A stretch of 64,000 bases of DNA. It comes from a virus. Of this stretch, positions 3,001-53,200 are shown one piece after another (within the stretch, counting starts at the first letter, position 1; every line of letters begins with the position of its first letter). The notes under the pieces were generated by a model, which ran no database searches, was not told where the DNA came from, and was given only the letters and a program-made list of their open reading frames with translations. Made by a program: the position numbers and the translations under genes. The stretch lies in IMG/VR virus record IMGVR_UViG_3300026097_000010, positions 62,001 to 126,000 of that record; one strand, given 5' to 3'.

Positions 3001-4101
3001 AGTTGATCCGTCATCGCCTTCTGAAATATGATTCTGTACACAAACATATACATTAGAAAGATATCTTACTACATCGCCGATTTTGTATTCGACGTCGTCG
3101 ATCCATAGTCCTCTCCAATTTAAACCGGTTGTAAGGGTGTTCCAATAAGAAATATTTGGAGGTTCGTTGCCTGTAGTAATTGCTGTACAAACATACGTGT
3201 TTCCGCCAAGCCTAACAACATCACCTGGCTTATATTCGGTGCCGCTGTCCCAAACTCCGACAAAGTTAAATCCTTCTGTAAACAAATCCCAGTTTGTTGT
3301 GCTGACAGACGGAACAAAATTTGTATGATTTGTTTTTGATATATATAGATTACCGCCATAAACGACTACATCGCCTGGTTGGTAAACTGCAGCATCACTC
3401 CAGTCGTTTTCAAACTCAAATCCTTTTACAAATTGATCCCAGTTGCCTTCTTCATCTGCAAAAGTTCCTGCTCCGGAGGTGTGCGGAGTTACACAAATCC
3501 AAAGTCCGGCACCGTATTTTACAACATCATTCTCTTTATATCGAGTGTCAATTGCCCATGTGCCTTTGTATTCAATGCCTTGATTAAACGAATCCCACTT
3601 GCTTGAATCTTCTTCAAGCCCTAAATTTTCAGTGTTGGCAGAAGTATGTCCTTCGTTACAAACATATGTGTAACCGCCATATTTTACAATATCATTTCTT
3701 TTATAGCGTGTTTCTAGATCCCAATCTCCTTTCCAGTCGAACCCTTCGGCATAAAGTGTCCAATTAGAGATATCATTTTCTAGTCCAAGAGCAACGGTTG
3801 CGGCTGATGTATGGCTAGTATTACAGATATAAAGTAGTCCGCCATATTTTACAACATCATTAATTTTGTAAGTTGTTCCGGTAGACCAATCGCCTTTCCA
3901 ATCTTGGCCGTCGGTCATTTGATTCCATTTTGTAGGATTAAAATTTAAATCTGTATCAAAATTTTCAGCAGAAGTATGCCCTACTTGACAAATATATGTT
4001 CTGCCGCCGTATCTAATAACATCATCTTTAAAATATGATGTTGAGGAAGACCAATCGCCTTTCCATACAAATTTAATTCTACCTAGTTTAAATTCTGCCA
4101 T
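1..4101 (-). CDS. Giant tail-fibre/adhesin paralogue, 3' end beyond window
   Basis: An open frame runs from an ATG at 4101 to base 1 with no stop, giving 1367 residues of an incomplete protein. GGAG precedes the ATG. The N-terminus holds about seven CBM5/12-like modules, pattern W-x-Y-x-GDVV-x-YGG-x-Y-C-x-HT, over roughly residues 8-400. About residues 480-1230 hold four diverged copies of a helical repeat, pattern NRxFIxxE-x-AY ... IDA-x-YDL-x-Y-x-GN. Then comes a block with LDPGWGP and QKIDGALHNGG that is nearly identical to the next gene upstream. In that gene the same block starts near residue 756, here near 1297, so this copy carries about 540 extra residues. Role: probably a distal tail fibre or baseplate-attached adhesin, inferred from modules and fibre neighbours. 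The ligand is unknown. Confidence 0.8.
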   Translation of the reverse strand, partial: MAEFKLGRIKFVWKGDWSSSTSYFKDDVIRYGGRTYICQVGHTSAENFDTDLNFNPTKWNQMTDGQDWKGDWSTGTTYKINDVVKYGGLLYICNTSHTSAATVALGLENDISNWTLYAEGFDWKGDWDLETRYKRNDIVKYGGYTYVCNEGHTSANTENLGLEEDSSKWDSFNQGIEYKGTWAIDTRYKENDVVKYGAGLWICVTPHTSGAGTFADEEGNWDQFVKGFEFENDWSDAAVYQPGDVVVYGGNLYISKTNHTNFVPSVSTTNWDLFTEGFNFVGVWDSGTEYKPGDVVRLGGNTYVCTAITTGNEPPNISYWNTLTTGLNWRGLWIDDVEYKIGDVVRYLSNVYVCVQNHISEGDDGSTIGADPEGGGNADSRPDQDATGTYWNVLAIGSETDVLVERGDLIYFGGAGPSRLPVGNQGQVLVAGEQDPEWRSLGAVEYVYYVAPHGTDSPAPIFGKTWDQPFKTTRYACEQIEKGALNPNAQRLLELNRAFIQKEITAWIRYQIDNDISPFTSSFDYDEYKCERDVGIVLDKIQWDIGHGGNLKTRAAAQSFVDALGEGPFSDESEDKAYLTLSAEADEGVAAYTYLLTLAQSILDNEAPDTIYQNVSDDSTAIASQYIDTEYTAEAGTDTRFASLLQVIINTLEDQDTSRLPARSVPQYLVKASTGEHLETLPIRVPAYTAILGDELRSTRFKPKPASIDYSDAYYTTETFDHLTDVIGKIVTGTTVSATTGNNEAQDQSFPVADTVEQDVVEQLIQVMKLQSELKTETTNSYNLPDPTGYNASYLIGYGNARKLVKENKRFFQEEVIAWFTANYPNLKYGKTEFKKNISNIIDALVYDLTYDGNALSVKTGLSYYEGTGGSLNISASIKPFTLLALGFLKTRVNDVILGNSITPLNDEIVNFTDTAGSAASATLVGNNLDDIIEIIDTGPSAVGTSVTLTDPTPADGVNSTTALINAYSTLNSAASTISSDTVSWINANYPSLTYNSSDFADDVESVIKSAGFDFMFNSTYQTNKEAYAYLRKADYNLNQKQVIREAIEYALTNTNDGAVANVGGNADAIARINNLAGIIDNIIYGASNEGEVCQTDIRNRDYAILKLEENRDFIVAEVSAYITETYGNTATNTTASTNVITIGDTSNLVRNAAIKFTGTTFGGIEADTTYYVQNVVSSTTFTIATARNSNTPVTLTTASGSMGLELAYNRELCLRDVNTYIDALKFDLRYTSNYESRYVSRYYANAVIGSHEEDMFYLRDATGLRNCSVDGLQGDLLPENEYGTSRVSAGAYCSLDPGWGPDDFRTWIITRSPYVQGVSTFGSGAIGQKIDGALHNGGNDSIVSNDFTQVISDGIGAWIANNGRAE

Positions 4102-4119
4102 TTGTTGCTCCGTATAGTA

Positions 4120-4127
4120 TATTTATT
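4120..4127 (-). promoter_or_regulatory. Candidate late promoter (AATAAATA)
   Basis: The minus strand reads AATAAATA in the 42-base gap between the two giant fibre genes, 18 bases before the ATG at 4101. It fits the NATAAATA late box reported for marine T4-like phages. Short AT-rich boxes also occur by chance. Confidence 0.45.
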
Positions 4128-4143
4128 AGTTTGTTGTCCATAA

Positions 4144-7100
4144 TTAAAAAGACTTATAAAATATTGTTTGTGCTACCATTGTTCCACTTATTCCTGCTTC
4201 TGGTCCTATAAAATCAGCCCTTACAGGAATTAAATTTGAAAGATCAGCAACATTACTGATTTCTTGTGGACCTACTTTTACTGTGCCTGCAACAAAACTT
4301 GCGGTTGCAATTTCTGAGCCACCTAGAGTCAATCTAGATTCTAGATATCTTCTAATGGCTCGTTGTGTAGGAACAATGTTGTTAGAATCTTCCGTAAAGG
4401 TTGTGTCTGTAGAAAATTCTCTAATTACAGCGCCAGTTCCGCCTACCCGGATTCCCCCTAATCTAATCTCTGTTAATCCTCCAAGATCAAAAAAGTCAGC
4501 ACTAATTGTAACAATACCAGTAGATTGTTCTACAGCAAACAGCTCTCCTGTTCTAAAGTTTCCGTCTTGATCGGTACTTGCATAGAAAACTCTGCCTCCC
4601 AATCTTTCAAACACTTCGTTTTCTGGAGCTGTTAAAAACACTGTTCCTGAAACATACAAATCAGGATAGTTTGTTTCTGTAAAGTTTCCGGTGCCAATAT
4701 CTAAGAAATCGTGACCGGTAATACGACATTGAGAGTAACGCTCTCTAATTGACATTTGCGTATTATGGACAAACTGATCTCTTACTTTTAATTCGGGGCT
4801 TATACGAACTTCGGCAGTAAGACCTCCTTCTATAGAAGCAATTTCTGATAAAGTCACTAATGTATAAATTTCGTCAGAGCCGTCAAATGTTATTTGTGCT
4901 CCTGGCCCATATAACTTTGATAGATCGGTTACAGTGATAAATTTACCAGAAGGAATAATGTCGGCAAATCCATCACCTGAGATTGTTACATCTGTAGTCA
5001 ATGTTCTGTATCCTAATCCTCGATTTATCCAACTAGGCTGTGATAACACGCCGTCTGCTGTTCTACACAAGGCTTCAGCATCACTAGAACTACTAGGATC
5101 TGTAAAGGTAACTGTTGGTACAGTTGTATATCCCGAACCCGGATCCCATAATTTAATTTCTTGAATCTTTCCTGACAAGACAGAAACTCGACCTAGTGCT
5201 CTAGCTCCTGTTCTAATTAGATTTATTTTTCTAGAAGAATCTGCTAATGTAATCCACACCGGTGACGAAAGATCGTTAGGATTACTACCCGAAGGAGCCG
5301 ACGGTCTTCCGAACGCTACGTCGATCCAATTCTCTGAATCGATAAGTTCTCTGTTGGTCCATGTTACCCCATCAAAAGAAGTTACAGCATAATTAGAAGG
5401 TCCCGAACTAGGATCATCACCAACAACTCTACCGCCGGTGTCTCCTATTGCAAAAAATACACCTTGTGCATATCTAATTTTCTGCCAAAAGTGTGCTGTT
5501 GATCCATCTTGCGAAGGCATTGTTTCTGCTCGCCATATAAAGCCGTCGAAACTATATGCAATTTCTCCTGTTGAAGAAATTGCAACAAATCTATCATTTC
5601 CATAAGCTATCGATCTCCAATCTTTTTGCGTTGAATCATCAATAACATCCATGATATATGTTTCCCAAGTTATGGCCGAACCGGATCTAGTTCCTACCGC
5701 AACACTGTTATTACTGTTTGCAAGTGCAACAAATCTTTCTTTTCCGTATGCAATATCTATAAATTGATTAACTGTCGAATCAAATGCATCAGGAAGAGTG
5801 GTAGCGACCCAATTTATTCCGTCTCTTGATACAGCACCTTCATTTCCGTCATCTGAGACAGCTACGAATGCGCCATCTCCATACACAACTGACCTCCAAG
5901 GTCCGTTTGATGGTAAAGATGAACTAGTCCAATTTACACCATTATATGAATACGCAGCTTCGGGCGAACCGAGTTTCAATGCCACAAACACTTCTCTGCC
6001 GTTTGTTTCTTCTCTGCCTGTTGCTAAACAGCTCCATGTTCCGCCTGAAGGAAATGTTGTTGTTGACCAAGTTGTTCCGTTAGCCGATGTTAAACCAGTA
6101 TCGCTTCCGGTGGGAAGAACAACAAATCTTCCTGTAGCGCCTATTCCGCTAGATAGAAAACTAATAATAGCACCGTTATCTGTTGTGCTTAAAACTTTAA
6201 CACTAATATTATTATAAGGAGACTGTGCTCCTAATACAGACCCACTAATTGTATATGTTTCTCCAACTTGATAACCTGTTCCTGGTGATGCTAATGATAA
6301 GTTATAATCTCTTCCGTTTTTAATTATGTTGAATGTTGCTGCATCTTCGCCAGATTCTGCGCTGAGACTAATTCCGCTAAATTCCAGGTAAGTTTCACCG
6401 TACCCGATCGCTGTAAAATCTGTAGATCCTGGCATTGTTTCCGAAGTTACAGTAAACCCTGGATGAGAAAATGTAACTCTAGGTTCTATTCTATAAGTTG
6501 TTTGATTGCCTAATGTTTCTGATAAAGGAAAACCGGGTCTGACATGATCCCAACCTGGCTGGTCATCACTTTCTCTAGAAACAGTAACTACTTTGGTTAA
6601 TTGGTCATACGATGTTATATAACCGTATTGTCCCGTACCTGGGCCGCTTGTTAAAATTATGCGTTTACCTAAATAAGTTGCTTCTTGGGCTTCGTCATTC
6701 TGAGCAATTGTTATCTGAGTTGTATTACCATCTTGTGCATTATTCTGCACAACGCTATAGCCGCCTCCGCCGATTTCAGTTCCGATTGAATCTAGATCTT
6801 CTATTGTGTCTTCTAATCTTGCTTCAAATATTGCATTATCTCTAAAATCTTCAAATACTACTTCTGCATTAACCCCTGCACCTGTAAACTGTGCAGATGC
6901 TTGCGTGTAATTTTGTCCGGCGTGCTCCCATTCGAGTATTTGAATTTCGTCAACAAAATCTCCTGCAAATGTTTGTGCGATGGTTGCTTGCTGATTTCTA
7001 TTAAAGAGTCGTGCTGCTCTAGGTGTTTCGTCTGGGTCGACTCCGTCTGCTACTGCACCAAATCTCCCGTAAGAACAGTTTCCGTTTGTTGCTCTTATTA

Positions 7101-9642
7101 TTCCGCCGTTTTCTGCTAGGTATCCAATTTGGCAATAATATGTAAACACAGACACAAGTTCTGCTCTACCATTGTTCAAGACCTGGGCGCCGATGCCGTC
7201 CGATAGTACCTGTGTAAAATCGTTAGAAACCATCGATTTATTGCCGCCATTATGCAATGCTCCATCAATCTTTTGTCCGACACAGTTATCTCCTATAGTG
7301 GTCACACCTTGAATATACGGAGATCTAGTTAAAATCCATGTACGATCATCGGCCGGTCCCCAACCTGGATCTAGCGAGCAAAATGCTCCACCTGTAGGTC
7401 TTTGATAGAGATCGAAAACTTCGGGAGGATTTAAAATTCCGTCGAGTCCTTGGAGTGTACAATCTCTAACGCCGGTAGCATCTCTTAGATAGAACATATC
7501 GTCAAAATTTGCTCCGGTGATAGCATTACTGTAGTATCTTCCTTCCAGTATTGTTTTGTAGTTTCCTGTATAAATTATATCATATTTAAAAGCATCAATC
7601 GCTCTTCTTATATTTGTTTTATACAATTCAGAATCAAAGGTGTAATCTGGAAATGTTTCTTCGACATAGGCAACTGCTTCATGTGCAAAAAATTCTTTAT
7701 TTGCTTCTAAAATTAATACAGTGTTTGTGTATGCACTATCTGTAACAGCAGTATTTGTACCGGTTAGGGTCGGATTAGCGCCTTGCGATAAAACAAAAAA
7801 GTTAATATACGATATTAAATTATTAACCAATGCAGCTGTTGCAAGAGCAGAATCATTGCTTCCTGTTACAGGGGTTCCTTCTGATGAAAGAAAAACAGGA
7901 TCAACAGTATTTCCTGATGTTTTTCCTACAGTAAGCTCTTGTCCTTGGATAATGTCGCTTATAAACGGAAGAAGACGGTTTAATGCTGCTGTATAATAAG
8001 ATCCGTCATTGGCTAACTCTGCAATCGGTGTTTGTGCTTTGATTGTTGTGGATCTTAACTCTGATCCTTGGATCACAGTTCTCGCAGGAACAATTATTGG
8101 ACCAATTTCACGATGCTCTCCAGCAGAACATCGAATAGTTGTAAATCCTTCAAAATCATCATCTACTTGTTCTGCGGCAAATCGAATCGTTTTCCAAGGC
8201 TTGAAAGGACTGTATCCTCTCTGTGCATCTGTTGACGAATCAATACCTTGCGGATCGACATACACTACTCTGTTAATTTCACCGTATCTTCTGTAGACCA
8301 AAGAATCTTCATTGTCGATAGTTAGAACGGTGTCTGCGTCTCCAAGTTCTACATTTGTAGGTCCAAAGGAACTAGTATCACCTACTTCGTCTCGAGACAA
8401 ATCATAAGTTAAAAGATCTCCGCGTTGACTCAAACCTGTTTGTGTTTGTACTTCTACTACAATGTTCCAATAGTCAAAACCGCTACCGTTATCTCCTGGG
8501 AAGTTATCATTGTTTGATATATGTTGTACATTGCTTGCATAAACACTGCCTTGAAAATTAACAATGTCGTTTACTGAATATTCAACACCGGCAGACCATG
8601 CAGATCTCCAGTTTTGTCCAAATCCTATTTGTTCCCAATTCGAATCATCTAGATAATCAAGAGTACTAGCATCATCTGTAGTATCAGAAATTGCTACATA
8701 TAAATTTCCGCCACGTCTAACAACATCGCCTGTCTTGTAAGTAGATGTTGACGACCACAAACCTCTAAAGTTTACACCTTTAGATAAAAGTTCCCAATAA
8801 ATTTCTGTTGGTTGGTAAATTGAGTCGAACGGTGACTTGTTACTATTAGCTCGTACACAATAATATAAATATCCTCCATATTTTACAACACTTCCTATGC
8901 CGTAAAATAATTGAGAATCCCAATCAGTTTCAAACTCAGAACCGTCTAATTCTATTTGCCAATTATCTTCTTCATAGTTTGTAGCTGCATGACTTACTGT
9001 ACATCTCAGTAGTGATCCGTTATAAGTTACTAGGTCGTTTAATTTATATTGTGTATCTAATACAAAATCGCCTTTGTAATCAATGCCGCTGTAATATAGT
9101 TGCCATGTTTCTAAGGTACTGTCTTGAATATCATTGTTGTCGCCTACTTCGATACCATTTGATATGGTTGATGAAGTATGTCCTAAAACACAAACATAAA
9201 CATTTCCTCCATATCTTACAACATCGCCGATACCATATCTTGTCGAAGATGTCCAATCGCCTTTGAAACTAGGAGCATAAACGTATAACGACCAGTCTGA
9301 AATATTTGCATCAAACGTTCCTTGCGAAGTATGAGGAACTGTACAGACATAAAGGGCACCGCCATAGCGTACAATATCTCCTACAGTATAAACTGTAGTA
9401 GTTGTCCAGGTATGTCTGAATGCAAGTCCGTCTGCCATTTTATCCCATGCAGGAGAAAAATCAGTATCGTTTGGATTTGCTAAAAACTCTTGATCTGTTA
9501 AAAATGCAGATGCTGTATGTTGACGTATACAATAGTATACCGAACCGCTATACTGAACTACATCATCTTTATTATACGAAGTTGAAGAGGTCCACTCGCC
9601 ACGCCACGTATATCTAATTCTACTTATCTTAAACTCTGCCAT
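4144..9642 (-). CDS. Giant tail-fibre/adhesin with CBM-like repeats and Asp-box propeller
   Basis: This 1832-residue protein is the paralogue of the gene that follows it. Residues about 8-385 contain seven CBM5/12-like modules (for example GDIVRYGGALYVC). Next come a beta-rich region and one copy of the NKEFFAHE ... YKYDIIYTGN-type repeat near residues 640-720. The shared LDPGWGP and QKIDGALHNGG block follows near 756-810. Residues about 1175-1440 carry six Asp-box-like repeats of the form S-x-DG-x-W (AVSRDGINW, AYSFDGFIW, SFDGVTW), each after a strand such as FVAVS or FVAIS, which suggests a six-bladed propeller. The C-terminal 250 residues (GHDFLDIGTGN, ASTDQDGNFRTGE) resemble C-terminal regions I associate with fibre proteins of marine T4-like phages. 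It probably acts as a surface-exposed fibre binding host glycans. That role is inferred. Confidence 0.8.
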   Translation of the reverse strand: MAEFKISRIRYTWRGEWTSSTSYNKDDVVQYSGSVYYCIRQHTASAFLTDQEFLANPNDTDFSPAWDKMADGLAFRHTWTTTTVYTVGDIVRYGGALYVCTVPHTSQGTFDANISDWSLYVYAPSFKGDWTSSTRYGIGDVVRYGGNVYVCVLGHTSSTISNGIEVGDNNDIQDSTLETWQLYYSGIDYKGDFVLDTQYKLNDLVTYNGSLLRCTVSHAATNYEEDNWQIELDGSEFETDWDSQLFYGIGSVVKYGGYLYYCVRANSNKSPFDSIYQPTEIYWELLSKGVNFRGLWSSTSTYKTGDVVRRGGNLYVAISDTTDDASTLDYLDDSNWEQIGFGQNWRSAWSAGVEYSVNDIVNFQGSVYASNVQHISNNDNFPGDNGSGFDYWNIVVEVQTQTGLSQRGDLLTYDLSRDEVGDTSSFGPTNVELGDADTVLTIDNEDSLVYRRYGEINRVVYVDPQGIDSSTDAQRGYSPFKPWKTIRFAAEQVDDDFEGFTTIRCSAGEHREIGPIIVPARTVIQGSELRSTTIKAQTPIAELANDGSYYTAALNRLLPFISDIIQGQELTVGKTSGNTVDPVFLSSEGTPVTGSNDSALATAALVNNLISYINFFVLSQGANPTLTGTNTAVTDSAYTNTVLILEANKEFFAHEAVAYVEETFPDYTFDSELYKTNIRRAIDAFKYDIIYTGNYKTILEGRYYSNAITGANFDDMFYLRDATGVRDCTLQGLDGILNPPEVFDLYQRPTGGAFCSLDPGWGPADDRTWILTRSPYIQGVTTIGDNCVGQKIDGALHNGGNKSMVSNDFTQVLSDGIGAQVLNNGRAELVSVFTYYCQIGYLAENGGIIRATNGNCSYGRFGAVADGVDPDETPRAARLFNRNQQATIAQTFAGDFVDEIQILEWEHAGQNYTQASAQFTGAGVNAEVVFEDFRDNAIFEARLEDTIEDLDSIGTEIGGGGYSVVQNNAQDGNTTQITIAQNDEAQEATYLGKRIILTSGPGTGQYGYITSYDQLTKVVTVSRESDDQPGWDHVRPGFPLSETLGNQTTYRIEPRVTFSHPGFTVTSETMPGSTDFTAIGYGETYLEFSGISLSAESGEDAATFNIIKNGRDYNLSLASPGTGYQVGETYTISGSVLGAQSPYNNISVKVLSTTDNGAIISFLSSGIGATGRFVVLPTGSDTGLTSANGTTWSTTTFPSGGTWSCLATGREETNGREVFVALKLGSPEAAYSYNGVNWTSSSLPSNGPWRSVVYGDGAFVAVSDDGNEGAVSRDGINWVATTLPDAFDSTVNQFIDIAYGKERFVALANSNNSVAVGTRSGSAITWETYIMDVIDDSTQKDWRSIAYGNDRFVAISSTGEIAYSFDGFIWRAETMPSQDGSTAHFWQKIRYAQGVFFAIGDTGGRVVGDDPSSGPSNYAVTSFDGVTWTNRELIDSENWIDVAFGRPSAPSGSNPNDLSSPVWITLADSSRKINLIRTGARALGRVSVLSGKIQEIKLWDPGSGYTTVPTVTFTDPSSSSDAEALCRTADGVLSQPSWINRGLGYRTLTTDVTISGDGFADIIPSGKFITVTDLSKLYGPGAQITFDGSDEIYTLVTLSEIASIEGGLTAEVRISPELKVRDQFVHNTQMSIRERYSQCRITGHDFLDIGTGNFTETNYPDLYVSGTVFLTAPENEVFERLGGRVFYASTDQDGNFRTGELFAVEQSTGIVTISADFFDLGGLTEIRLGGIRVGGTGAVIREFSTDTTFTEDSNNIVPTQRAIRRYLESRLTLGGSEIATASFVAGTVKVGPQEISNVADLSNLIPVRADFIGPEAGISGTMVAQTIFYKSF

Positions 9643-10365: not shown

Positions 10366-11418
10366 TTATCCTAACATTAATGCAAACGCTGCCGAAATGT
10401 CGTTTGCTTGAATTTCTGACACTGCACCTGATGCACCGGCTGGACTAGCCCATGTTGCACCATTCCAAATTTCAAGTGCTCCTGCTTCTGTATTATATCG
10501 TGTCATGCCTATAACAGCATATGCTGTAGGTCTTTCAGCATTATTTCCTACCGGAGGTACAAAGCCATTAGTCGTGTCGATTTTAAAGTACCCAGCTCCG
10601 GTCTGTGCAAAAATTGATATAGCATCATCTACTACGTTAGTTATGGTATTACTAGCTATTCTAAAGTTTCCTAATCTAACGCCGCCGGCACCGCTACCGT
10701 CGATATAGATATCATTTCCTGCAGATGAAGATATTGTGCTGTCAGTTATATTAATATCGCCAATATCCATTGTAGGCACATCAATAAAATCTGCAAAGAA
10801 TTCATTAGCAAACACAGTTCTCCATTTTTTGTCTGCAGATCCTAAATCATATGTGTTGTTTGCATCTGGTACAATATCACTTTGTATACTAGCATTAATA
10901 GTAATTGTATCTGTTAATTCGTCGCCTATTGTGATATTACCGCCTATAGTAACGTCACCAACCGCACTAACATTTCCAGAAACTGACAAGTTACCAGTAA
11001 TGTTTGTGTTGTTAACTAATTCTATGGTGCCTGCACCATTAGGTCTAAGTTCAATTGAACTGTTTGATACAGTTGTAGATATTACATTTCCTGCAACTTC
11101 AAAGTCATCGACCTGAAGTTTTGCATGATAAATTGTTGGATCTGAGCCGCTAGGGGAAAAACTAATAGTATCTTGTGTGCTACTAATTGTGTTTCCGGTA
11201 ATTGTTAAATTACCAATGTCTTGTTGATTATCAACTACAAGAGTTGTAGTTCGTGTGGTTCCAGTAACGTCTAGATCAGTTGTAGGAGAACTGTTGTTAA
11301 CGCCTATTCTACGATTGTTTACATCTAAATATAAAAGGTCAGTCTCAAAGGCCAAATCATTGCCATCACGCAATAAGTTAGACTTCAAGAGCGGACCGGA
11401 AATACGACCAATAGCCAT
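10366..11418 (-). CDS. Short fibre-like protein
   Basis: This 350-residue protein begins IGRISGPLLKSNLLRDGNDL, nearly the same as its neighbour at 11539-14343. Its middle is built of short repeats such as GNLTITGN, GNLSVSGN, VTIGGNITIGD and PNGAGTIELVNNTNITG, typical of triple-stranded beta fibre shafts. The YDLGSADKKWRTVFA motif marks a fibre module also found in the right-hand fibres as YDIGSSTRRWNRVFS. The C-terminus has the module PPVG-x-ERP ... TRYNT-x-E-x-WNGATW and ends in FALMLG. It appears to be the unexpanded version of the larger neighbour. A role as a tail or whisker fibre is inferred. Confidence 0.7.
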   Translation of the reverse strand: MAIGRISGPLLKSNLLRDGNDLAFETDLLYLDVNNRRIGVNNSSPTTDLDVTGTTRTTTLVVDNQQDIGNLTITGNTISSTQDTISFSPSGSDPTIYHAKLQVDDFEVAGNVISTTVSNSSIELRPNGAGTIELVNNTNITGNLSVSGNVSAVGDVTIGGNITIGDELTDTITINASIQSDIVPDANNTYDLGSADKKWRTVFANEFFADFIDVPTMDIGDINITDSTISSSAGNDIYIDGSGAGGVRLGNFRIASNTITNVVDDAISIFAQTGAGYFKIDTTNGFVPPVGNNAERPTAYAVIGMTRYNTEAGALEIWNGATWASPAGASGAVSEIQANDISAAFALMLG

Positions 11419-11538: not shown

Positions 11539-14343
11539 TTAACCTAGGATAAGACTATAAACGTTAGCAAAATCTTCTTGAATTTCTTCAGTGACTTCTT
11601 CACCAGCTCCTGTTGCAATTACATAGACATTGCCGTCAAAACATTCAAGATAGCCTTCTTCTGTGTTCCAGCGAGTATCACCTATTTCGGTCGTCGACGG
11701 ACGAGTCGAATTGTCTCCAGCAGGCAGAACAAATGCATTTGTGCCAGCAAATTGATAATATCCTCTATCTGTACCAGTAAACGATATAGGATCATTATTG
11801 TTTAAATTAGTAATGTAATCATTAGGAGCAAACGAATTAATAGTTAGTGTAACAAAATCTCTAGTAATTCTATCGTACATATAGATATTAGTATCAGTAA
11901 CAGCTATAATGTCAACTCGAGATTCATTTACAGATTCTCCATTTACAGCAAAATTTCCAATAGCCGACGGATCGGGACTAATATTCGATCTTCTGATATC
12001 ATAATCTCCTTGGAGAGAAGATCTGTAGATTTGTATGGTATCTGAAGGTGCTCCACTACTAGGCTGATAATATATTTCTCTAGGATTATTTGTATCCACA
12101 AACGTAGAAAATTTGTAAAAACTATAACCTATATAGTTTATGTTAGATGTAGTTGAACTAGCTGATGATAAATCGTGTCCAGTAGAAAGTGTAAATGTTT
12201 CAACATCGCCAAATGAACTATGAATAATAACTCTTGTGCCGTCAGCATTTACGTATATATTTCCAAACGAATTATTAATCGATGCATCGATAGTTGTAGA
12301 ACTTAGTAATGATGATGTTGTTAGATCATAAGGTGTTGTTAAATTATAGTTTTTAAGTATCTTATTATATGATGAATCTCTTAACATATAATAAAAATGA
12401 GTTCCATCTGGGCTAAATGTAAAAAATGATAGTCCTATGGTATACGGTGATGATTTATCTACTAAAATAGATTGAGATTGTACAACACTCGAAAAATCAT
12501 AGGGTGCATTTAAATCATATCTTCTTACAGTTTCGAAACTAGTTTGCCATCTAAAAAGAATTGTTCCTGTAGGGTCTATTTTCCATATATCGTCTGAATT
12601 AGCAGCAAATGCATTAACTTGGCTTACTATACCACCATTTATTAACGGAATATCGGGATAAAAATCTGTTCTAAATGAATAAATTGTACTACCAGATGCT
12701 GTGAATATTTTTTTACCGTCCGATGCTAATGCCATACAAGAGCCAATCACCGAACTAATACTATGAAACTCGTCAGTATGTTCAAGGCCGGCCCAATCTA
12801 TTGTTTTAACAATCTGGTTAAGACTGTCATCTAGTACTATAAGATCTTTTTCGTCAGGTGTAAGAAGTACACTATTAATATCGCTTGACCATCTTGAGGT
12901 GTTAAATCCGTCAATTATTGATAGTCCTGACGAAATATCCCAATTATTAGTTAAACCTATTTTCCACCAAGTTCCTCTTGAAGAAGTATTACTTCTAGCG
13001 TAGAAATACATAAATTTTCCATTTGGACTAAATCGCAGATCACTAAAATAACTTGCAGTTCGGGGAGATGTTCCTGTAGAATCTAGTGTTGCGGTTGTTA
13101 AATCAAATGGAGTAGTCATTGTATACTTGTATATAGATGCTGTATTCTCAATAATGAAAAGCATTGTGCCGTCTTCACTGAGAGTAACTCCACATCTAAA
13201 CATATTTGACACTTGTCCAGATACATCTAGAGAAATACCTGTTGTTGTAATTGTTGAAAAATCATAAGGAGTTGCAAGATCATATCTATAAATTATTTCA
13301 GTACCTGCTGCAACTATTAAAATTTTACCGTTGTTAAAAAAGTCAAAACTCGTAATACCGCCGCTAAACCCTAATGTGCTTATATTATAACTACCGTCGG
13401 TTTGTGCACCTGGAAGATAATAAGTTTCTCTTTGGGGTTCAAACATTATTTCTTCAATTCTGGTTGTTTGGGTAGCTGGAAGAATAGTTACATCGTCATT
13501 TGATTGAAGGGCAAAAATTTCGTTATCAACACCATTAATAAATATTTGGTCACTTATTCTAGCATTCACAGGTGTAATTGTATCAATCTCCGAAGTATCG
13601 GTAAAAAAGATATTCTGCCATTGCCCGAAAGACGAATCGGTTTGATTTCTACCAAGGTCGTATGCATTGTCTAATCCTGGTATTAAACTTTGCTGAAGTT
13701 CTACATTAAAATCAACTACATCGTTTTCTGGTTGAGACCCTTCATTGTCAATAACATCGTCACCTAGTATTAACGATCCTTGCTTAGTTAAATTTCCAGA
13801 AATATCAATATTTCCACTTACATATAGATCACCTGTAATATTTGTATTAGCAATTAACTCTATAGTTCCGGTAGCGTTAGGTCTTAACTCTATATTTTGA
13901 TCTGGTATTAATCCTGTTATATTGTTATCGTTAAACTCTAAAGAGTCTGTAATTAATCTGTCGTGTCTGATGTAAGGATTAGTTTGACTAGGAACAAGAT
14001 TAATAGGCCCCACAGATGTAGTAAAATATGAATTTGACTGAACAATAAGATTAGCTATATTAGCTTGACTATTGACTATATTATCTGTAGTAAATATGTC
14101 GTTATTAACATCTAGATCAAAAACTGGAACATCTACATTTATTCCTATTCCTGTACCTTGTAACGATGAAGGAAGAGAAGAATCGTAATTAGGATCGCCG
14201 TATTCGCCGTCTTCTATAAATGGTTCTATAACGGGAGAAACTTTGAGATATAACAGATCTGTATCAAATGCAAGATCGTTACCATCTCGTAAGAGATTGT
14301 CTTTGAGTAAAGGACCGCTGATGCGTCCTATATTTCCTGCCAT
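11539..14343 (-). CDS. Fibre-like protein with inserted propeller-like domain
   Basis: The product is 934 residues. Residues 1-290 match the 350-residue sister fibre (IGRISGPLLKDNLLRDGNDL, PNATGTIELIANTNITGDL, YDLGRNQTDSSFGQWQNIFF). The last 75 residues match it again (LPAGDNSTRP ... TRWNTEEGYLECF, ending VYSLILG). Between them, about residues 305-830, is an extra block. It repeats a unit of the form Y-(D/N)-L-x-(T/A)-PYDLTT, with copies YDLATPYDF, YTMTTPFDL, YDLNAPYDF, YNLTTPYDL and FTLSTGHDL. Each copy follows strands of the form LRFSPNGKFMYFYA, which looks like a WD40- or YVTN-like beta-propeller. The simplest reading is a propeller inserted into an ancestral short fibre. It is probably exposed on the virion for binding; the ligand is unknown. 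Confidence 0.75.
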   Translation of the reverse strand: MAGNIGRISGPLLKDNLLRDGNDLAFDTDLLYLKVSPVIEPFIEDGEYGDPNYDSSLPSSLQGTGIGINVDVPVFDLDVNNDIFTTDNIVNSQANIANLIVQSNSYFTTSVGPINLVPSQTNPYIRHDRLITDSLEFNDNNITGLIPDQNIELRPNATGTIELIANTNITGDLYVSGNIDISGNLTKQGSLILGDDVIDNEGSQPENDVVDFNVELQQSLIPGLDNAYDLGRNQTDSSFGQWQNIFFTDTSEIDTITPVNARISDQIFINGVDNEIFALQSNDDVTILPATQTTRIEEIMFEPQRETYYLPGAQTDGSYNISTLGFSGGITSFDFFNNGKILIVAAGTEIIYRYDLATPYDFSTITTTGISLDVSGQVSNMFRCGVTLSEDGTMLFIIENTASIYKYTMTTPFDLTTATLDSTGTSPRTASYFSDLRFSPNGKFMYFYARSNTSSRGTWWKIGLTNNWDISSGLSIIDGFNTSRWSSDINSVLLTPDEKDLIVLDDSLNQIVKTIDWAGLEHTDEFHSISSVIGSCMALASDGKKIFTASGSTIYSFRTDFYPDIPLINGGIVSQVNAFAANSDDIWKIDPTGTILFRWQTSFETVRRYDLNAPYDFSSVVQSQSILVDKSSPYTIGLSFFTFSPDGTHFYYMLRDSSYNKILKNYNLTTPYDLTTSSLLSSTTIDASINNSFGNIYVNADGTRVIIHSSFGDVETFTLSTGHDLSSASSTTSNINYIGYSFYKFSTFVDTNNPREIYYQPSSGAPSDTIQIYRSSLQGDYDIRRSNISPDPSAIGNFAVNGESVNESRVDIIAVTDTNIYMYDRITRDFVTLTINSFAPNDYITNLNNNDPISFTGTDRGYYQFAGTNAFVLPAGDNSTRPSTTEIGDTRWNTEEGYLECFDGNVYVIATGAGEEVTEEIQEDFANVYSLILG

Positions 14344-43800: not shown

Positions 43801-44271
43801 GAATTAAGGATTACATATGGTGCTAGATTAAATCCTATTAAAAGCATCAGCGATGAAATTATATACCAGCCTGCCAAATATAAAGTTCTCTTTGGGTCAG
43901 AGGCACAAGAATCATTAAGGGCTAAATTTAAAGTTGTTAAAAACAAAGACAAAGTAATTAACGATAACGACTTAAAGGTTAGAATTGTAGACGCTATTGA
44001 TGAATTTTTTAATGTCGCTAACTGGGATTTTGGAGATAAATTTTATCTGAGCGAATTGACAACCTACATTTTAAATTCTGTGTCGCCCGACATTAGTAAT
44101 ATTGTGATATTGCCTAGACAGGCAGATCAAATTTTTGGAAATTTATTCGAAATACAGAGTAATCCCGATGAAATATTTGTAAGCGGAACAAGTGTAGATG
44201 ATATTGAAATTGTTTCTTCTATAACAACAGCAGAAGTTAGGACTGGAACCAATCAACAGGATAATTATTAA
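40867..44271 (+). CDS. 6: Baseplate wedge gp6 (enlarged)
   Basis: gp6 joins wedges into a ring. The N-terminal 110 residues (ILNEDWTRIYQTFKNADFKS, LIDAVAFLGQSLSFRVDLAS, AKMLGYNAKRNIPATG) and the segment YYTQNRMITGEDYNLAPFSS near residue 420 are typical of gp6 and the baseplate J family. The C-terminus has VANWDFGDKFYLSELTTYIL, also family-like. The length, 1134 residues against 660 in T4, reflects large insertions of beta-rich sequence, approximately between residues 560 and 950. The start codon has GGAA 9 bases before it. The stop overlaps the next ATG by one base. Confidence 0.88.
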   Translation: MSSTARQNNLILNEDWTRIYQTFKNADFKSYDFENLRRVIIAYLRENYPEDFNDYIESSEYLALIDAVAFLGQSLSFRVDLASRENFIELAERKESVLRIAKMLGYNAKRNIPATGLLKFTSVTTTERITDSNGRNLAQQLVTWNDPTNTNWAEQFILILNAAMSDNTEFGRSQGSATILGVPAEQYRFRTSTSDIPLFTFSKTVSGRSAAFELVSTVFKDAENFYEEAPTPGSQLGFVYRQDGQGPGSINTGFFLQFKQGSLEFADFNIEVPTTNERVTVDSQNINNDDVWLFKLNSNGQQLSEWTKVSNFVGNNIAYNSVIGNIKDIYAVETKENDRIDLVFADGVYGNLPQGPFRVYYRVSNGLNYSITPQEMRNISISIDYVNNNGESHTLTIGLSLQSTVANASETENIDTIRQNAPALYYTQNRMITGEDYNLAPFSSSQDILKVKAINRTSSGISRNFDIVDASGKYSSINVFADDGFIYKNESERNFSFKFTNRTDIINVIKRQLEPVFSSTGVYNFYLTKYDKVVFTDNNKVWNQSTSDINSSTGYFTDAVDLTFQKVGVFSTSSLQYLKVGSTIKFIAPSGQSFKNGKLVTSNSSDSDQTSYIWTKVVNILGDGTNASRGNLPSGLGPITFSDPVPTGAIANRILPRFVTDLPISLENEIVNYVFQNINFGLRYDNLASQWKIIQASNLDLISPFTQGRAGDTSNTNLDGSWSVAFVKEADEYVVRIRTIDYIFGSVEQNRFYFDANEKNYNSQTGQVVKDQVKVLGINTGKDFITPLNNDFSFEISDTIKFDDGYESTESIKISFSDSDDDGAIDNPESFENIVGEDTDLNYLYFQETTDEYGSVIYEKIDNSNETIKILQTETTFTFDDEETYPDGQLIYFYDANEDRVKRVDRTTNTLVLESSYRANIGRDGLKFQYIHNASEDRRIDPSSSNIIDLFLLTRGYDTAYRNYLRSGGSRPQEPSTDELRITYGARLNPIKSISDEIIYQPAKYKVLFGSEAQESLRAKFKVVKNKDKVINDNDLKVRIVDAIDEFFNVANWDFGDKFYLSELTTYILNSVSPDISNIVILPRQADQIFGNLFEIQSNPDEIFVSGTSVDDIEIVSSITTAEVRTGTNQQDNY

Positions 44272-47200
44272 TGGCAAATAGATCATACCCTAAAAGTAAC
44301 TTACCTATAAGAAAAACATCGGAGTTACTACCACAAGTATTTCAAACAGATACCAATAATAAATTTTTATCCGGAGTAGTAGACCCGTTGGTTCAGCCAG
44401 GAGTCTTAGATAAGACTGTCGGTTATATAGGCAGACGCTACGGTAAAACATTTAAAGGTTCTGAGGTATACCTAGATAATGATCAAACCTTACGAAGTAG
44501 GTATCAGTTAGAGCCAGGCGTAACAATTTCTGAAGACGGAAAAATAAATTCTTTCTACGATTATTTAGATTTCAAAAATCAATTAAAGTTTTTTGGAAAT
44601 GATAATGATAGAGATGATAAAATAACCTCACAAGAACACTATAGTTGGAACCCTCCTATTAACTGGGATATGTTTGTAAACTATAGAGAATATTATTGGA
44701 TGCCATTGGGGCCAGAACCTGTTTCCATAACCGGTCAAACAGGATCTATTGTTAGCACATACAAGGTAATGGCTTCAACAGGCACAAGCTGGATTTTTAC
44801 TCCTGATGGATTAACAAACAACCCGTCGATTACATTGTATAGAGGACAGACTTATGAATTTAATGTAAACTCTCCCGACGAAGGATTTACCATAAGAACA
44901 AATTATGATACTGGATCGTTACTATTTGATCCTAACAAAACATATTTTTCTGGCGATCTTGCTGTATTCGATGAGAAACTATGGAGAGCCGATACAGAAA
45001 TATCACCACTAGATGGTAGCACAATAGATATTAATTCTCAAGATTGGACTTTGATAGATTCGAGTGTTGCTAATTCTAGCTTAAATTATAATCAAGGTAT
45101 CGAAAATAACGGAGTGAAAAATGGAAAATTAACATTTACTGTTCCTCTAGATGCTCCGGATATTCTTTATTACCAAAGTGATGTGATACCTGATAGGTTA
45201 GGAACATTTATAATCGCCGATATAGAATCTAATACTTTTATAAATGTTGAACGCGAAGTAATAGGAAAAACAACCTACAAATCGAGTAACGACATCGAGT
45301 TAACAAACGGGCTGGTTGTAGAGTTTAAAGGAAATGTAACTCCGGAGAGTTATTCAAAATCAAGATGGTTAGTCGAAGGAGTTGGTAATGCTATCACACT
45401 AACAAAGTTCGAAGATTTAGTTCCTCCTGCGTTAGCACAAGACACTCCAGAAGTCCTTTTCGATAATGAAGGGTTTGATACTCAGCCATTTGATGATGCT
45501 GATCAATTCCCTGCAGAAAAAGATTATATAGTAATTTCTAAAAACAGTAAAGATCTTAATCCGTGGAGTAGATATAATCGTTGGTTCCATCGTAGCGTAA
45601 TCGAGCAATCGGCTAATTTTAATAATTCTAGTTTTAGTGCGTCTGAAGAATCTAGAGCTAAAAGACCTATAATTGAATTTAAACCGAACACAAAATTGTT
45701 TAATCACGGCGTTGTTGCGAAAAGAACAGTCGATTATATTGATACTGTTACAGACGATGTATTTTCACAAATAGAAGGAAGTATAGGCTACAGCATCGAT
45801 GGAGAATTTTTATTCGAAGGCGCCCGCATTCTTATTGTTGCTGACACTGATTCTCTTGTGAATAATAAAATCTATGAAGTTAAATTTATAACACACAATG
45901 GAATAAGAATTATTAATTTGCAAGAAACTGAGGATAGTGATTCTTTACTAGATGAAAGTGTGTTAATTAGACGAGGACAGTTAAACGCTGGACTAATGTA
46001 TCATTTTAATGGCGTTGCTTGGATAAGAAGCCAGCAAAAAACATCTGTAAATCAATCGCCGCTGTTTGATGCATTTGATTCCAACGGTGTTAGTTTTAGT
46101 GATATTGAGACATATCCTGTTTCGACCTTTCAAGGAACTAAATTATTAAGTTACCAAATTGGAACTAGTATTAATGATTCGGAGTTAGGGTTCAGTTTAA
46201 GTTATCTAAATATCGACAATGTTGGTGATATACAGTTTAACTGGAATTGGGATATTGATAATTTTCAGTATACTGAAAATCAAGTTACTAACACCGTAAA
46301 ATTAAACACAGGATTTTATAAAATTGATTCCGATTTTGATAATGGGTGGACCCAAACAGATCTAACTTTTACCCAACCAATAATTGACAGTGTTATTTTA
46401 GATACAGACACTAACGAAGTTGAACTTAGAACAGTACAGTGGGAAAATTTAACAGATTCTGCGATAATTAATTTTTATCTAAACGGACAACGAATAAACA
46501 ATAATTACAGCAGACAAGGTAACAAATTTTTATTTCAAACAACATTTTCTCAAAACGATGTAATATCTATTAAGATAATAGATAATATAGAACCTGATCA
46601 AGGATACTATGAAATTCCGTTAGGGTTGGAAAAAAATCCGCTGAATCAGGAAATTACGAGTTTTACACTAGGACAGGCGATAGATCATGTCGAATCGTCT
46701 TTGGAATTTGATAGAGAGTTTGTAGGTTCTATACCAGGTTCGTCAAATTTAAGAGATTTATCAAATTATCAATCTAAGACTACTCGATTTATAAAGCACG
46801 GCGGCGTTTCTGCATTACCGATTGTATTCTTGTGCAATAAAGATCAAAATTTAATAAAAGCATTAAAGTATGCTAAACAAGAATACACTAGATTTAAAAA
46901 CAATTTTATCGAAACAGCAACAAGTTTAAATTTTGATGGAAATACAGCAGATTTTGTAGACGAAATAGTTAACCAGTTATCAAAAACAAAGACGGTTGAT
47001 AGTCCTTTTATCGACTCGGACATGATCGGAAGCGGCGCCTACACTTCTTTAGATTATACGGTAGACGATGAAGGCATTAAAACATTTGCTCTTAGTGAAA
47101 ATTTTGATCTAGACACTCTAAGTAATCGAGCGGTGTATGTCTATTTAAATGATAACCAATTATTGCATGGAGCTGAATATACTTTCGACAGCACCTTTGG

Positions 47201-50200
47201 TTTTATTACAATAAACAAAGATCTAAGCAGAGGTGATCAGTTACAAATTAGAGAGTATGTGTCTACAACATTTAGTCACATTCCTTCGACACCAACCTCA
47301 CTTGGCCTTTTTAAAAAATATACACCGTCTAAATTTATTGATAATACTTTTCTGGAACCTAGAGAAGTAATTATTGGACACGATGGAAGCTTAACACCTA
47401 CCTATAATGATTTCCGAGACGATCTAATATTAGAATTAGAGTATCGAATTTATAACAACATCAAAGTTAATTACGACGAAACTGTATTTGATATTGATAG
47501 TGTACTAGGAGGATATTATCAGCAAGGCGATTTTACAAAATCAGATGTAGATGCAATTGTTTCGCAAGAATTTCTTTCTTGGGTTTCTAATACCGGTGTA
47601 AATTATGCAATTAATCAGTATTTTGATAGCGAAAACGCATTCACCTATACTTATTCTAATATGACCGATCCGACTGGTACACAAAACTTACCAGGTTATT
47701 GGAGAGGTGTATATCAATGGTTCTACGACACCGACAGACCGCACCGTTCTCCTTGGGAAATGTTAGGATTTAGCGAAAAGCCTACTTGGTGGAATGATGA
47801 ATATGGTCCTTCTCCATATACTCGAGGAAATTTATTATTGTGGGAAGATATACAGCAAGGCATAGTTCGTCAAGGACCTAGAGCAGGAAGATATTCTAGA
47901 TATGCTAGACCGACAATATTGAATCATATTCCAGTTGACGATGACGGTAATTTGTTAGATCCGCTATCATCTGGACTTGCAAGAGATTTTACATTGGTTA
48001 ATAATCAAGGAAGTTTTAAACTAGGTGATGTAGCTCCTGTTGAACATGCCTGGAGATCAAGTTCTGAATGGCCGTATGCTGTTTTGATTGCTTTATCATT
48101 GTTAAAACCATTTGATTTTATTACTAGATGTCTTGATAGGTCTTCTGTTACTACAAACTTGATCGGACAAGTAGTAACTAAAAATACTGGATATTTTCCA
48201 ACAATTAAAGACATTGTGGTACCTGAGCCTACTGTTCGCTTAACGAGTGGTTTAATTAATTATATGTCGTCTTATTTAAGATCTATAGGATTAAGCCCTG
48301 GCTTGTTGACAGATACCATTCAAAATATATCTGTTAGTTTATCTTCTAGATTAAGTGGATTCGTTGATAAGACACAACAAAAATATCTTTTAGATAGCAA
48401 AAATCCTAATTCTGCATCGGGTAGTATTTTCATCCCACCTGAAAATTATGATATCATTTTTAATGTTAGTTCTCCTATAGATACTATTACCTACAGCGGT
48501 GTAATTTTAGAAAAAACGTCTAGGGGATGGATAGTAAGAGGGTACGACAATATAAGTCCCTTCTTTAAATTTTATCAAGCCGTGCCGAATCAACGAGATC
48601 CTATAATTAAAGTAGGCGGTATAAGCGAAACATTTGTTGAATGGGCTCCTGAGCAAACATACAACAACGGATCTATAGTATTATATAGAAATGATTATTA
48701 TAGATCGTTAAAAACACATGTATCGGGTGAAACACTTGATACTTCTTTATGGAATAAATTACCTAATCTTCCGTTAGTAGGGGCTATCGAAGCACAGCGT
48801 AGAAGAAACTTTAATAAACTGAAATTACAACAAATAACATATGGACATGAATTTAATACAATTCAACAAGTTGTAGATTTCTTATTAGGTTACGAAGAAT
48901 ACTTAAAATCCACCGGCTTTGTTTTTGACAATTACGATACTGAAAATCAAGTTTCGCAAGATTGGACAACTAGCTGTAAAGAATTTATGTTTTGGACCAA
49001 GCATAATTGGGCGGAAGGCTCGATTATTACATTAAGTCCATCAGCTACCAAGATCCAGATCACGGCACCGGTAGGAGTAGTGGATAATATTTTAGACAGT
49101 TTCTACGAATATAGTGTTTTTAAAGGCGATGGAAACCCGTTAGATCCGAAGTTTATAGATGTAAACAGGGATTTTCAATCAGTAACAATTAATACAACTA
49201 ATACAAATCAAGGAATATATTTTCTAAAATTAAATTATGTCCTTAAAGAACATGTTGTTGTATTTGATGATAGAACTGTTTTTAATGATGTAATATACGA
49301 TAAACCTACCGGGTACCGCCAGCTTAGAATTAAATCTAGAGGATTTCGGACGGTTGATTGGGACGGCGATTATACGAGTCCTGGATTTTTATTTGATAAT
49401 GTTAATATCGAATCTTGGCAACCGTTTAGAGATTACAGTTTAGGGGATATTGTTTCTTATCGTTCGAATAACTGGGTCGCACGAGTTTCACACCCAGGCA
49501 ATGAGAATTTTGATGATGCCCAGTGGAGCCTATTAGATTCGGAACCAGAAAAGAAATTAATACCTAATTTTGATTATCGAATTAATCAATTTGAAGATTA
49601 TTTCGAAACCGGTGCTGAAGGAGTTAGCGAAGTTCAACGCCAATTAGCTAGAAATACTATAGGATTTCAATCTAGACAATATCTGAATAATTTAGCAGAA
49701 GACACAGTTACTCAGTACCGCTTATACCAAGGCTTTATAAGAGAAAAAGGAACTAATAACGCACTTACTAAACTTTTTACAAAATTAAGTGACGATACAG
49801 AAGATACTAGTTTGTTGTTAAACGAAGAATGGGCTTTTAAAGTCGGTGAATTTGGAGGTACAGACCAGTCATCAGAAGTCGAGTTCGAAATTAAAATAAA
49901 CAATTTTGAAATCAATCCTCAACCGTTGTTAGTTACATCGACCCTGCCAACTAGTAATTTAGATCAAAATTACAGAGTCACGGGAGACGAATTTACAATT
50001 TCTGCTATACCGTTCTCAACAAACATTATTCCGGTATCTTACAACTCTGAACCTGTTAAAACAGCAGGATATGTAAAATTAGACCAACCCGAATGGACGG
50101 TTAGAGATAGAATATCTCTTAATAATTTAGATATAGATCAAATTGTAGAAAATGATCATATATGGATTACATTCGACACTATTGACTGGGACGTTGTAAG

Positions 50201-53200
50201 ATTCAACCAAATACCCGGAGTAATCATTACAGATATCGAATTGACCGCAAATTCAACTGCATTAATATTTTTGAATAAAGAAAGCGGTTTAGAAATTGGT
50301 AGCTATATTGGTATTAAAAATATAACAAATCTTTCAGGCTTTTTTGAAATTGTAGATAAGTTTGTAGAAAGAAGTGAAGTTTTGCTAACACATATTATAG
50401 AAATATCTATTCCTGAAGGCACCCAGACGCCGGAATTTGAAGGAAGCACTGTAAATAATTTGTATACATTAACTGATGCTAGATTCGATGCATATGACAA
50501 TTTAGATCCTCAGTTATCGGCATTGCTAGATGAAAATAGCAAGTTATGGGTCGATAACAATGGAAATGATCTCTGGGAAGTTGTTGAAAAGAAAAAACAA
50601 TTTATATCTAAAAAGATAGAAAATTTTGGATTAATCGACCCTAGCAAAGTAGGAAGTAAAGTAGTTTATAATTCCACTTTAAATCAGACACTAACTGCCA
50701 TTCCAGATCCAGGATTTGTAATTGCATATACCGAAGCCCCAGAGTTTTTATCAGTAAGACAAATATTATCTCCTCCAGATTTTCTGCAAAGCACAGTAAC
50801 AGGACTCTTCGGCGAAGAAATATCAGTCAGTCCTGATGGAAAATGGCTTGCTGTAGGATCACCTCTTGCCAGCGGCGTCGGAAGTTATTATAAAGGATTG
50901 TTTAATCCTACCATTACATATAACCCTCTAGATATAGTATTATATGAAGGAAAATTATGGAGAGCAACCCAGCAGTATGACAGAGATCTTCTTGCCAGTT
51001 TAGACGACTCAACTTGGATAGCACCAGGAACAGAAGGTTGGGAACCTGCTACTATCGTGGAAGCGGTCAACAATCCTTCAGCTGAAGGACACACCGAGCA
51101 AGGAGTTGTTACGTTATATGAATTTGCAAATAATCAATGGTCACGAAGAATAAGCGTAGTTAGTCCAAGACCTAATAATAGAGAAAAATTCGGATCATCT
51201 ATCAGCATAGGTGTTGCAGACGGAATATATTATATGGCTGTCTCTGCACCAGGTGCCGCAGAAAATAGAGGAAGAGTATATCTGTACATTTTTGAAAACT
51301 CAGAATGGAAACATATCGAAAATGTAAAATACAGAGGAATTTATGACGACGAAGCATCTGTCTACTATGCAGGAGACATTGTTTGGTACAATGGAAATCT
51401 TTATGAGTGTCTCGACAATTCAACAACCTATGTTGATGTTAAAGATACCGGCGACTTATCATCTACAGGAAATTGGGTCAAATTAAACAATGTTGCTACA
51501 CAGAACTCTTTACCTCAAAGTGTATCTGTGGAAGATGATGGTTCGACTTTGCAAAGTGGTATACTTAATCCTATCCAAATGGCCGAACTAATAAAGGTAG
51601 GAGATCAATTTGGATCCAGTGTAGCAATGAATTACGATGCTAGTATTTTAGTAGTCGGCGCTCCGTTCTCTGATGATCAATATTTTCCTAACTATAAAGG
51701 AGTTTGGCGCCCGGATTACGAGTACACTCAAAACGACACTGTTAGACACAAAGGTAATTATTATCAGTTAGCTAACATAGGCGAAACCGCAGTTGCTTTA
51801 GATTCTACCATTACTAGTTACAATCAAGAACCTGTCGGAGAACCATGGATAGAAATTGGCGATAGTTCGACAGATCCGACCGGAAAAGTTTTTGTCTATC
51901 AACGATCATTGCTTGGTACATACGAGCTCAAACAAACCGTTTCCGCAGATAATTTTATAAACCAAAGCGGAACAGCTATATCTATTAACACAGGTGACGA
52001 GTTTGGATCGTCGGTTGATATAGATTTTTCAGGAACAACGATAGTTGCATCAAGTCCTAAGTCGGATATTGAATTTTCAAATCAAGGGTCTGCATATATT
52101 CTAAGAACCGATTCTGTAATCTTGCCCGAATACAAGCTAGTTCAAAAAATACAAAGTTATGAAAAATATCCAAATGAATTTTTCGGATTTAATGTTAGTA
52201 TAAGTCCAAATACCTCTAAAATTGCAATAGGTGCAAACAATGCACAATTTAGTTCTCCTATAAGATTTGATTCAAGCTCTACTACATTCGACGAAGGCAG
52301 ATCGTTATTTTATAGTTCTAGAGGATTTGTTGGAGCTGTATATGTTTACGAATTAAAAGATGATATCTATTTTTTAACAGAAAAACTTGAAGCTGATTTC
52401 CAAGTAGGCGAGTCTTTTGGATACAGTGTTGATTGTGACGATTCAGTGGTTGTTGTCGGGTCCCCCTTCTATAAAACAACTGGTATGGTTAGAACATTTA
52501 GAAAAGATCCAACAAAGAACAGTTGGGAAATTTTAGCTCAACAAACTCCTGTAACTCAAATAGAAAAAGTTAAAAGTATTGCATTGTATGATAACATAAA
52601 CAATATTAAAATTCAAGATCTTGATTATGTCGATCCTGCAAAATTAAAAATTTTAAACGAAGCCGAACAAGAATTAAAATTCAAAACACCTTACGACCCA
52701 GCGGTATATTCAATAGGCACCGAAACTGTGGTAGTTGATTCAGACATCGCATGGACTACAAAAAATGTCGGCGAGCTGTGGTGGGATTTAAGTACAGCAA
52801 AATGGATATACTACGAGCAAGGCGATACAGCCTATAGAACAGGAAATTGGGGAGTTCTTGCTGAAGGAGCAAGCATAGACGTGTACGAATGGGTTGAATC
52901 TTCGATCCTTCCGGCAGATTGGGCGATATTAGCAGACACCACAGAAGGTCTTGCCGAAGGTATAAGTGGACAGCCGTTGTATCCTGATAACTCTGTGTAT
53001 AGTATTAAAGAATTATACAATGTACAAACATTAGAACCTACAGAAACATTGTATTATTTCTGGGTAAGAAATAAAACAACAGTGCCTAATGATATGAACA
53101 ACAGAAGACTGTCAGCATCTTCGGTTGCAAATTTAATTTTAAATCCTTCAGCTAACAATACTTTTATAACATTGGCAGGGTCTGATAAATTATTGGCATA

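Follow-up and report, generated by a model that had tools for sequence, protein, structure and literature searches.

A T4-like phage fibre gene with an inserted block predicted to form two five-bladed beta-propellers in tandem

The window (the entire 64,000-nucleotide stretch analysed, from a virus record of 152,482 bases) includes a fibre-like gene that is far longer than its sister gene next door, which raises the question of whether a foreign domain has been placed in an otherwise intact scaffold and, if so, what that domain folds into. The gene lies in a T4-like structural region that encodes a portal, a head protease and gp23 (PF07068, E 1e-100). Small virion genes follow gp23 on the minus strand, and the run closes with an 1832-aa tail fibre. 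Two adjacent genes are considered here, the first of which we call the slot gene.

11539-14343, minus strand: 934-aa virion fibre-like protein with an inserted block (slot gene), assigned from its open reading frame (ORF), synteny and the slot-family profile
10366-11418, minus strand: 350-aa sister fibre without the insertion, assigned from its ORF and BLASTP against the 934-aa protein

A scan with the 350-aa protein yielded 32 related viral loci in IMG/VR contigs, roughly 20 of which share a gene order. Specifically, gp23 is followed by genes for proteins of about 90 aa, about 130-145 aa, about 325 aa, about 122 aa and 165-230 aa, and these by a slot gene (430-554 aa). Some 117 nt separate the slot gene from a fibre of 350-355 aa, after which come proteins of 110 aa and 121 aa and, last, the large tail fibre. 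The 934-aa protein sits in the same syntenic slot, between a gene for about 175-230 aa and the 350-aa fibre, and it matches the slot-family profile with 265.8, 84.4 and 19.4 bits. We assign a probability of roughly 60% to the reading that this protein is a virion fibre of an uncultured T4-like phage, with an insertion hot spot that is filled by two five-bladed beta-propellers in tandem.

Two other large proteins of the window have recognizable features. The 1832-aa tail fibre (4144-9642, minus strand) carries six CBM_5_12-like carbohydrate-binding repeats in its N-terminal part (PF02839, E 5e-37) and, at residues 1140-1430 or so, a separate propeller-like run with the pattern W..IAYG.DRFVAISS...YS.DG..W, which belongs to a different sequence family. 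A 4593-aa ORF (44271-58052, plus strand) matches phrog_10938, a phage virion structural protein, and phrog_438, a baseplate wedge subunit.

The original prediction held that the 934-aa protein matches its 350-aa neighbour at both ends and represents a clean insertion relative to it. The two-ended match is confirmed by BLASTP, which aligns residues 5-277 with sister residues 3-238 (37% identity, E 1e-43) and residues 850-934 with sister residues 264-350 (40% identity, E 2e-14). The insertion is clean as well, but the sister is not its proper reference. Syntenic proteins of 350-355 aa (62-69% identity) are the orthologues of the 350-aa protein, and the 934-aa gene occupies the slot; thus, the sister counts as a paralogue, and an insertion should be judged against the slot genes, which are orthologous to the 934-aa gene. 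When the 934-aa protein is aligned to the slot-orthologue profile, residues 4-304 map to profile positions 3-274 and residues 841-909 map to positions 273-340, which leaves a foreign block of 536 residues, rather than the roughly 525 first estimated, between adjacent profile positions 274 and 273. Because the flanking residues 304 and 841 fall on adjacent profile positions, the propeller block is cleanly inserted and no scaffold has been lost. The protein therefore divides into three parts.

13435-14343, minus strand: N-terminal scaffold, residues 1-303, which aligns with the sister and the orthologues
11824-13434, minus strand: inserted block, residues about 304-840, with flanks on adjacent profile positions and absent from 44 of 59 distinct orthologues
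11539-11823, minus strand: C-terminal scaffold module, residues 841-934, supported by 40% identity to the sister, the orthologue profile and phrog_1325

The N-terminal scaffold begins with IGRISGPLLK and contains shaft-like repeats and a YDLG..W motif, and the C-terminal module has the pattern GYxxF...RPxxxxxGDTRWNT...LILG and is common to many phage virion proteins (phrog_1325 and others). The block has a GC content of 0.331 (GC3 of 0.179), and its flanks, at 0.343 and 0.379, are only slightly richer; base composition thus does not point strongly to a recent acquisition. In single-protein searches of IMG/VR, the sole match to the block was one contig that is 100% identical over 15,975 bases and is probably the same virus, and a search for slot-gene orthologues among isolate phages gave no match at E 1e-5.

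The block is built from repeats. Motifs of the TPYDLTT type, which the original prediction had noted, begin at residues 354, 407, 609, 666 and 717, and a blade profile built from 29 blades of other phages, with the window excluded, matches the block with 55.5 bits, whereas 200 shuffled sequences reach at most 4.8 bits. This difference indicates that the repeat does not occur by chance. Likewise, alignment of one half of the block with the other gives a Smith-Waterman (SW) score of 122, compared with at most 68 in 300 shuffles. At about 53 residues per unit, the 536 residues accommodate ten units, and an alignment from residue 310 places these ten in register, unit for unit, with ten-unit homologues. 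Furthermore, a ring-length profile matches the block twice, at residues 332-512 and 588-741, with a total of 133 bits. The window blades are divergent, with about 17-27% identity to the family, and for several single units the score from the blade profile is close to zero or negative. Searches of Pfam, NCBIfam and PDB sequences with the block returned nothing significant.

The family to which the block belongs by these two profile scores was defined from phage tblastn matches to the block in marine phage proteins. It has a unit of about 52 aa with the consensus WDISTASYDSVSFSVSSQDTSPTGLFFKPDGTKMYVVGSSNDSVYQYSLSTA and the blade motif FxxDGTxMYxxG...YxLSTxxDLSTA. A scan with the protein of Lentibacter phage ICBM2 added 120 further viral loci, 80 of which were kept. 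Among 102 non-redundant arrays in complete ORFs, 97 comprise 5, 10 or 15 units and none comprises seven (threshold 0 bits); the five others have 3, 4, 6 or 16 units. This count is unchanged at a threshold of 5 bits, and at -5 bits multiples of five make up 83 of 100 arrays, with one array of seven. Arrays of exactly five, often alone in their protein, are the commonest, and fives split by linkers are a common arrangement. The rule of fives is kept in roseophages CRP-13 and CRP-738, Lentibacter phage ICBM2, Synechococcus phage S-SKS1, Maribacter phage Molly_1 and LR756508. Two of the three bacterial-genome matches that were checked consist of separate fives, and the third is a run of ten. We found no report of the family or of this rule in the literature set searched, outside which most subscription papers lie.

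Bacterial genomes with the five-unit blade family include a Magnetococcales MAG, a Flavobacteriales MAG and Marivirga aurantiaca (L207, L208 and L209). In M. aurantiaca, the blades come after PKD-like repeats in a long secreted-type protein.

Since the block has ten units and its family counts in fives, it most likely consists of two five-bladed rings in tandem.

12658-13398, minus strand: predicted five-bladed ring 1, residues about 316-562, from the ring profile, AlphaFold2 and viral fold matches
11854-12657, minus strand: predicted five-bladed ring 2, residues about 563-830, from the ring profile, the ten-unit alignment and homology to ring 1

Structure prediction, which had been suggested as a check on the block, gives a confident propeller for the first half and a weaker picture of the second. 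An AlphaFold2 model of ring 1 (residues 308-566, with 105 rings in the alignment) has a pLDDT of 86 and a pTM of 0.86, and it displays five four-stranded blades with strand order d-a-b-c. Five-unit relatives supplied the boundaries of the modelled segment, and the model therefore favours five; within it, the ring is likely to close between the first and last blade. Matches in BFVD (TMq 0.77-0.82) are led by phage and marine-virus proteins, and natural five-unit proteins (TM about 0.8) are among the best viral matches, including ICBM2 with a TM of 0.79. Among the PDB matches listed, most are seven-bladed WD40 rings (TMq 0.44-0.55, rmsd 6-10). A model of all ten blades (18 sequences) reaches a pLDDT of 63, which drops below 50 in the last two blades, and every PDB entry that it matches, at a TMq of about 0.3, is a propeller protein or a chain that contains a propeller. 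Ring 1 is thus confidently modelled as a propeller, and because the ten-blade model is weak at ring 2, the prediction that ring 2 is five-bladed rests on sequence.

The original prediction was right about a beta-propeller-type repeat, which the family profile and the ring 1 model both bear out, but it expected a ring of about seven blades. Such a single closed propeller, with the leftover units serving as a linker, would fit the Pfam assignments of the relatives, given that 95 of the 105 rings match SGL and 72 match '7-bladed lactonase' (window ring 1 matches neither), and it would fit 1l0q, the seven-bladed YVTN surface-layer propeller from an archaeon, which among solved structures is the closest relative by sequence. 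We nevertheless regard it as quite improbable, as the block has ten units by length, the family includes no array of seven at 0 bits, and the fit of seven-bladed PDB propellers to ring 1 is poor (TMq about 0.5).

A single large ring of ten blades is also unlikely, although it would account for ten contiguous units without a linker, and ten-bladed propellers do exist, as in the Vps10 domain of sortilin. Arrays in the family most commonly have exactly five units and are often the sole array in their protein, which argues against so large a ring, as does the alignment of the 15-unit relatives L058 and L072, in which the pattern is interrupted at every fifth unit. Moreover, the first five units alone produce a confident, compact model. 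Two rings of five remain the preferred reading of the block.

To place the insertion among its relatives, we surveyed slot genes with a profile scan that retrieved 231 relatives, from which 80 loci were kept; the comparison covers 59 distinct slot proteins. The main hot spot for insertion is at core positions 272-294, just before the C-terminal module, and the 44 slot proteins mentioned above have no large insertion. Other relatives carry one of three kinds of module at this same hot spot: one of about 82-98 aa, represented by six distinct sequences with the pattern TLTVGGTITG...SDSSGTYTVN, another of 109-110 aa, and a third of 63-73 aa. These 63-110-aa modules are unrelated to the propeller block, which among the 59 distinct slot proteins occupies the main hot spot in the window and its identical copy only. 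No propeller blades were found in other slot or sister ORFs of these loci.

Several further features of the slot genes were observed. The 109-110-aa insert at the main hot spot of L198, L199 and L200 is without a Pfam match and includes GDIRNDLDNPGVINADDANL, which bears a slight resemblance to a dockerin-type calcium loop. The slot gene has another hot spot at core position 98-102, which holds unrelated inserts of 138 and 185 aa (L159:2293-4101 and L196:3998-5923). One slot gene (L187:3143-5018) is spread over two overlapping frames, 3143-4129 and 4092-5018, which reflects a frameshift or an assembly error.

By analogy, the double propeller is probably a swappable surface-binding head. The scaffold would combine a fibre shaft with a C-terminal module, and the cassette would be displayed sideways near the tip. 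In a trimeric fibre, three such pairs of rings could form a platform, comparable with that of the phi11 receptor-binding protein Gp45, in which five-bladed propellers make up a platform whose cavity is the proposed site for the GlcNAc receptor (PMC4901313). The propeller faces may recognize a ligand, probably a glycan, on the surface of the host or of particles, and a swap of the cassette would then change the adhesion target of the virion.

The propellers might instead be a structural spacer, or a head decoration for particle adhesion, rather than a host-specific receptor binder, and the 934-aa protein could be located on the head instead of the tail. The gene comes immediately after gp23 and a group of small virion genes, and the tail fibre at the end of the operon, with its CBM_5_12 repeats, is the more obvious adhesin. 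Yet close relatives differ in the cassette, a variability typical of adhesive parts, and fibre-type modules are common to the scaffold and the sister fibre, so we consider this explanation doubtful but worth retaining. Far less plausible still is an enzyme of the lactonase or gluconolactonase type that acts on the host surface. Relatives do match Pfam SGL and Lactonase, but the window block matches neither family, and the family consensus consists mostly of structural positions among which no set of catalytic residues stands out.

A surface-binding head remains our preferred role for the double propeller. More tentatively, the family as a whole could be a mobile adhesin module of marine phages, made of strictly five-bladed rings in series (5, 10 or 15 blades), whose cassettes are swapped at fixed fibre hot spots and retarget the virion. 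A few propellers in phage adhesins are already known. This one belongs to a widespread and apparently undescribed family whose members are mostly unnamed or assigned to six- or seven-bladed enzyme families, and which counts in fives, so that the fold and boundaries of its members become predictable. A single fibre gene whose fixed hot spot holds nothing, small modules or a double propeller may also offer a testable view of how adhesion changes in marine T4-like phages.

Among known systems, PF10282 lactonase, PF08450 SGL and the YVTN propeller 1l0q resemble the family in sequence at the level of the blade. Lactonase and YVTN rings have seven blades and SGL has six, whereas the family counts in fives; the window block falls under their cut-offs, and both the whole 934-aa protein and ring 1 score below the PF10282 gathering score. 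The Staphylococcus phage protein phi11 Gp45 places a five-bladed propeller in a virion adhesin with domains on both sides (PMC4901313), but it has a single ring per chain and a helical stem, in contrast to the two predicted rings and the scaffold of the 934-aa protein, which is beta-rich as judged from beta-type repeats. A search of solved structures found no sequence match between the 934-aa protein and Gp45. Other propellers in putative phage receptor-binding proteins are the distorted five-bladed PRD1 P2 and the seven-bladed phiKZ gp131C (PMC4901313), for which we saw no sequence relation to the window and no tandem rings within a fibre. Blades of the same family, about 52 aa long, also occur in ICBM2 AYP28110.1 and the 'hypothetical proteins' of roseophages CRP-2, CRP-13 and CRP-738, which share an arrangement in fives and a location in structural genome regions. 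Their carrier proteins are different, whereas in the window more divergent blades are housed inside the scaffold of a T4-like fibre.
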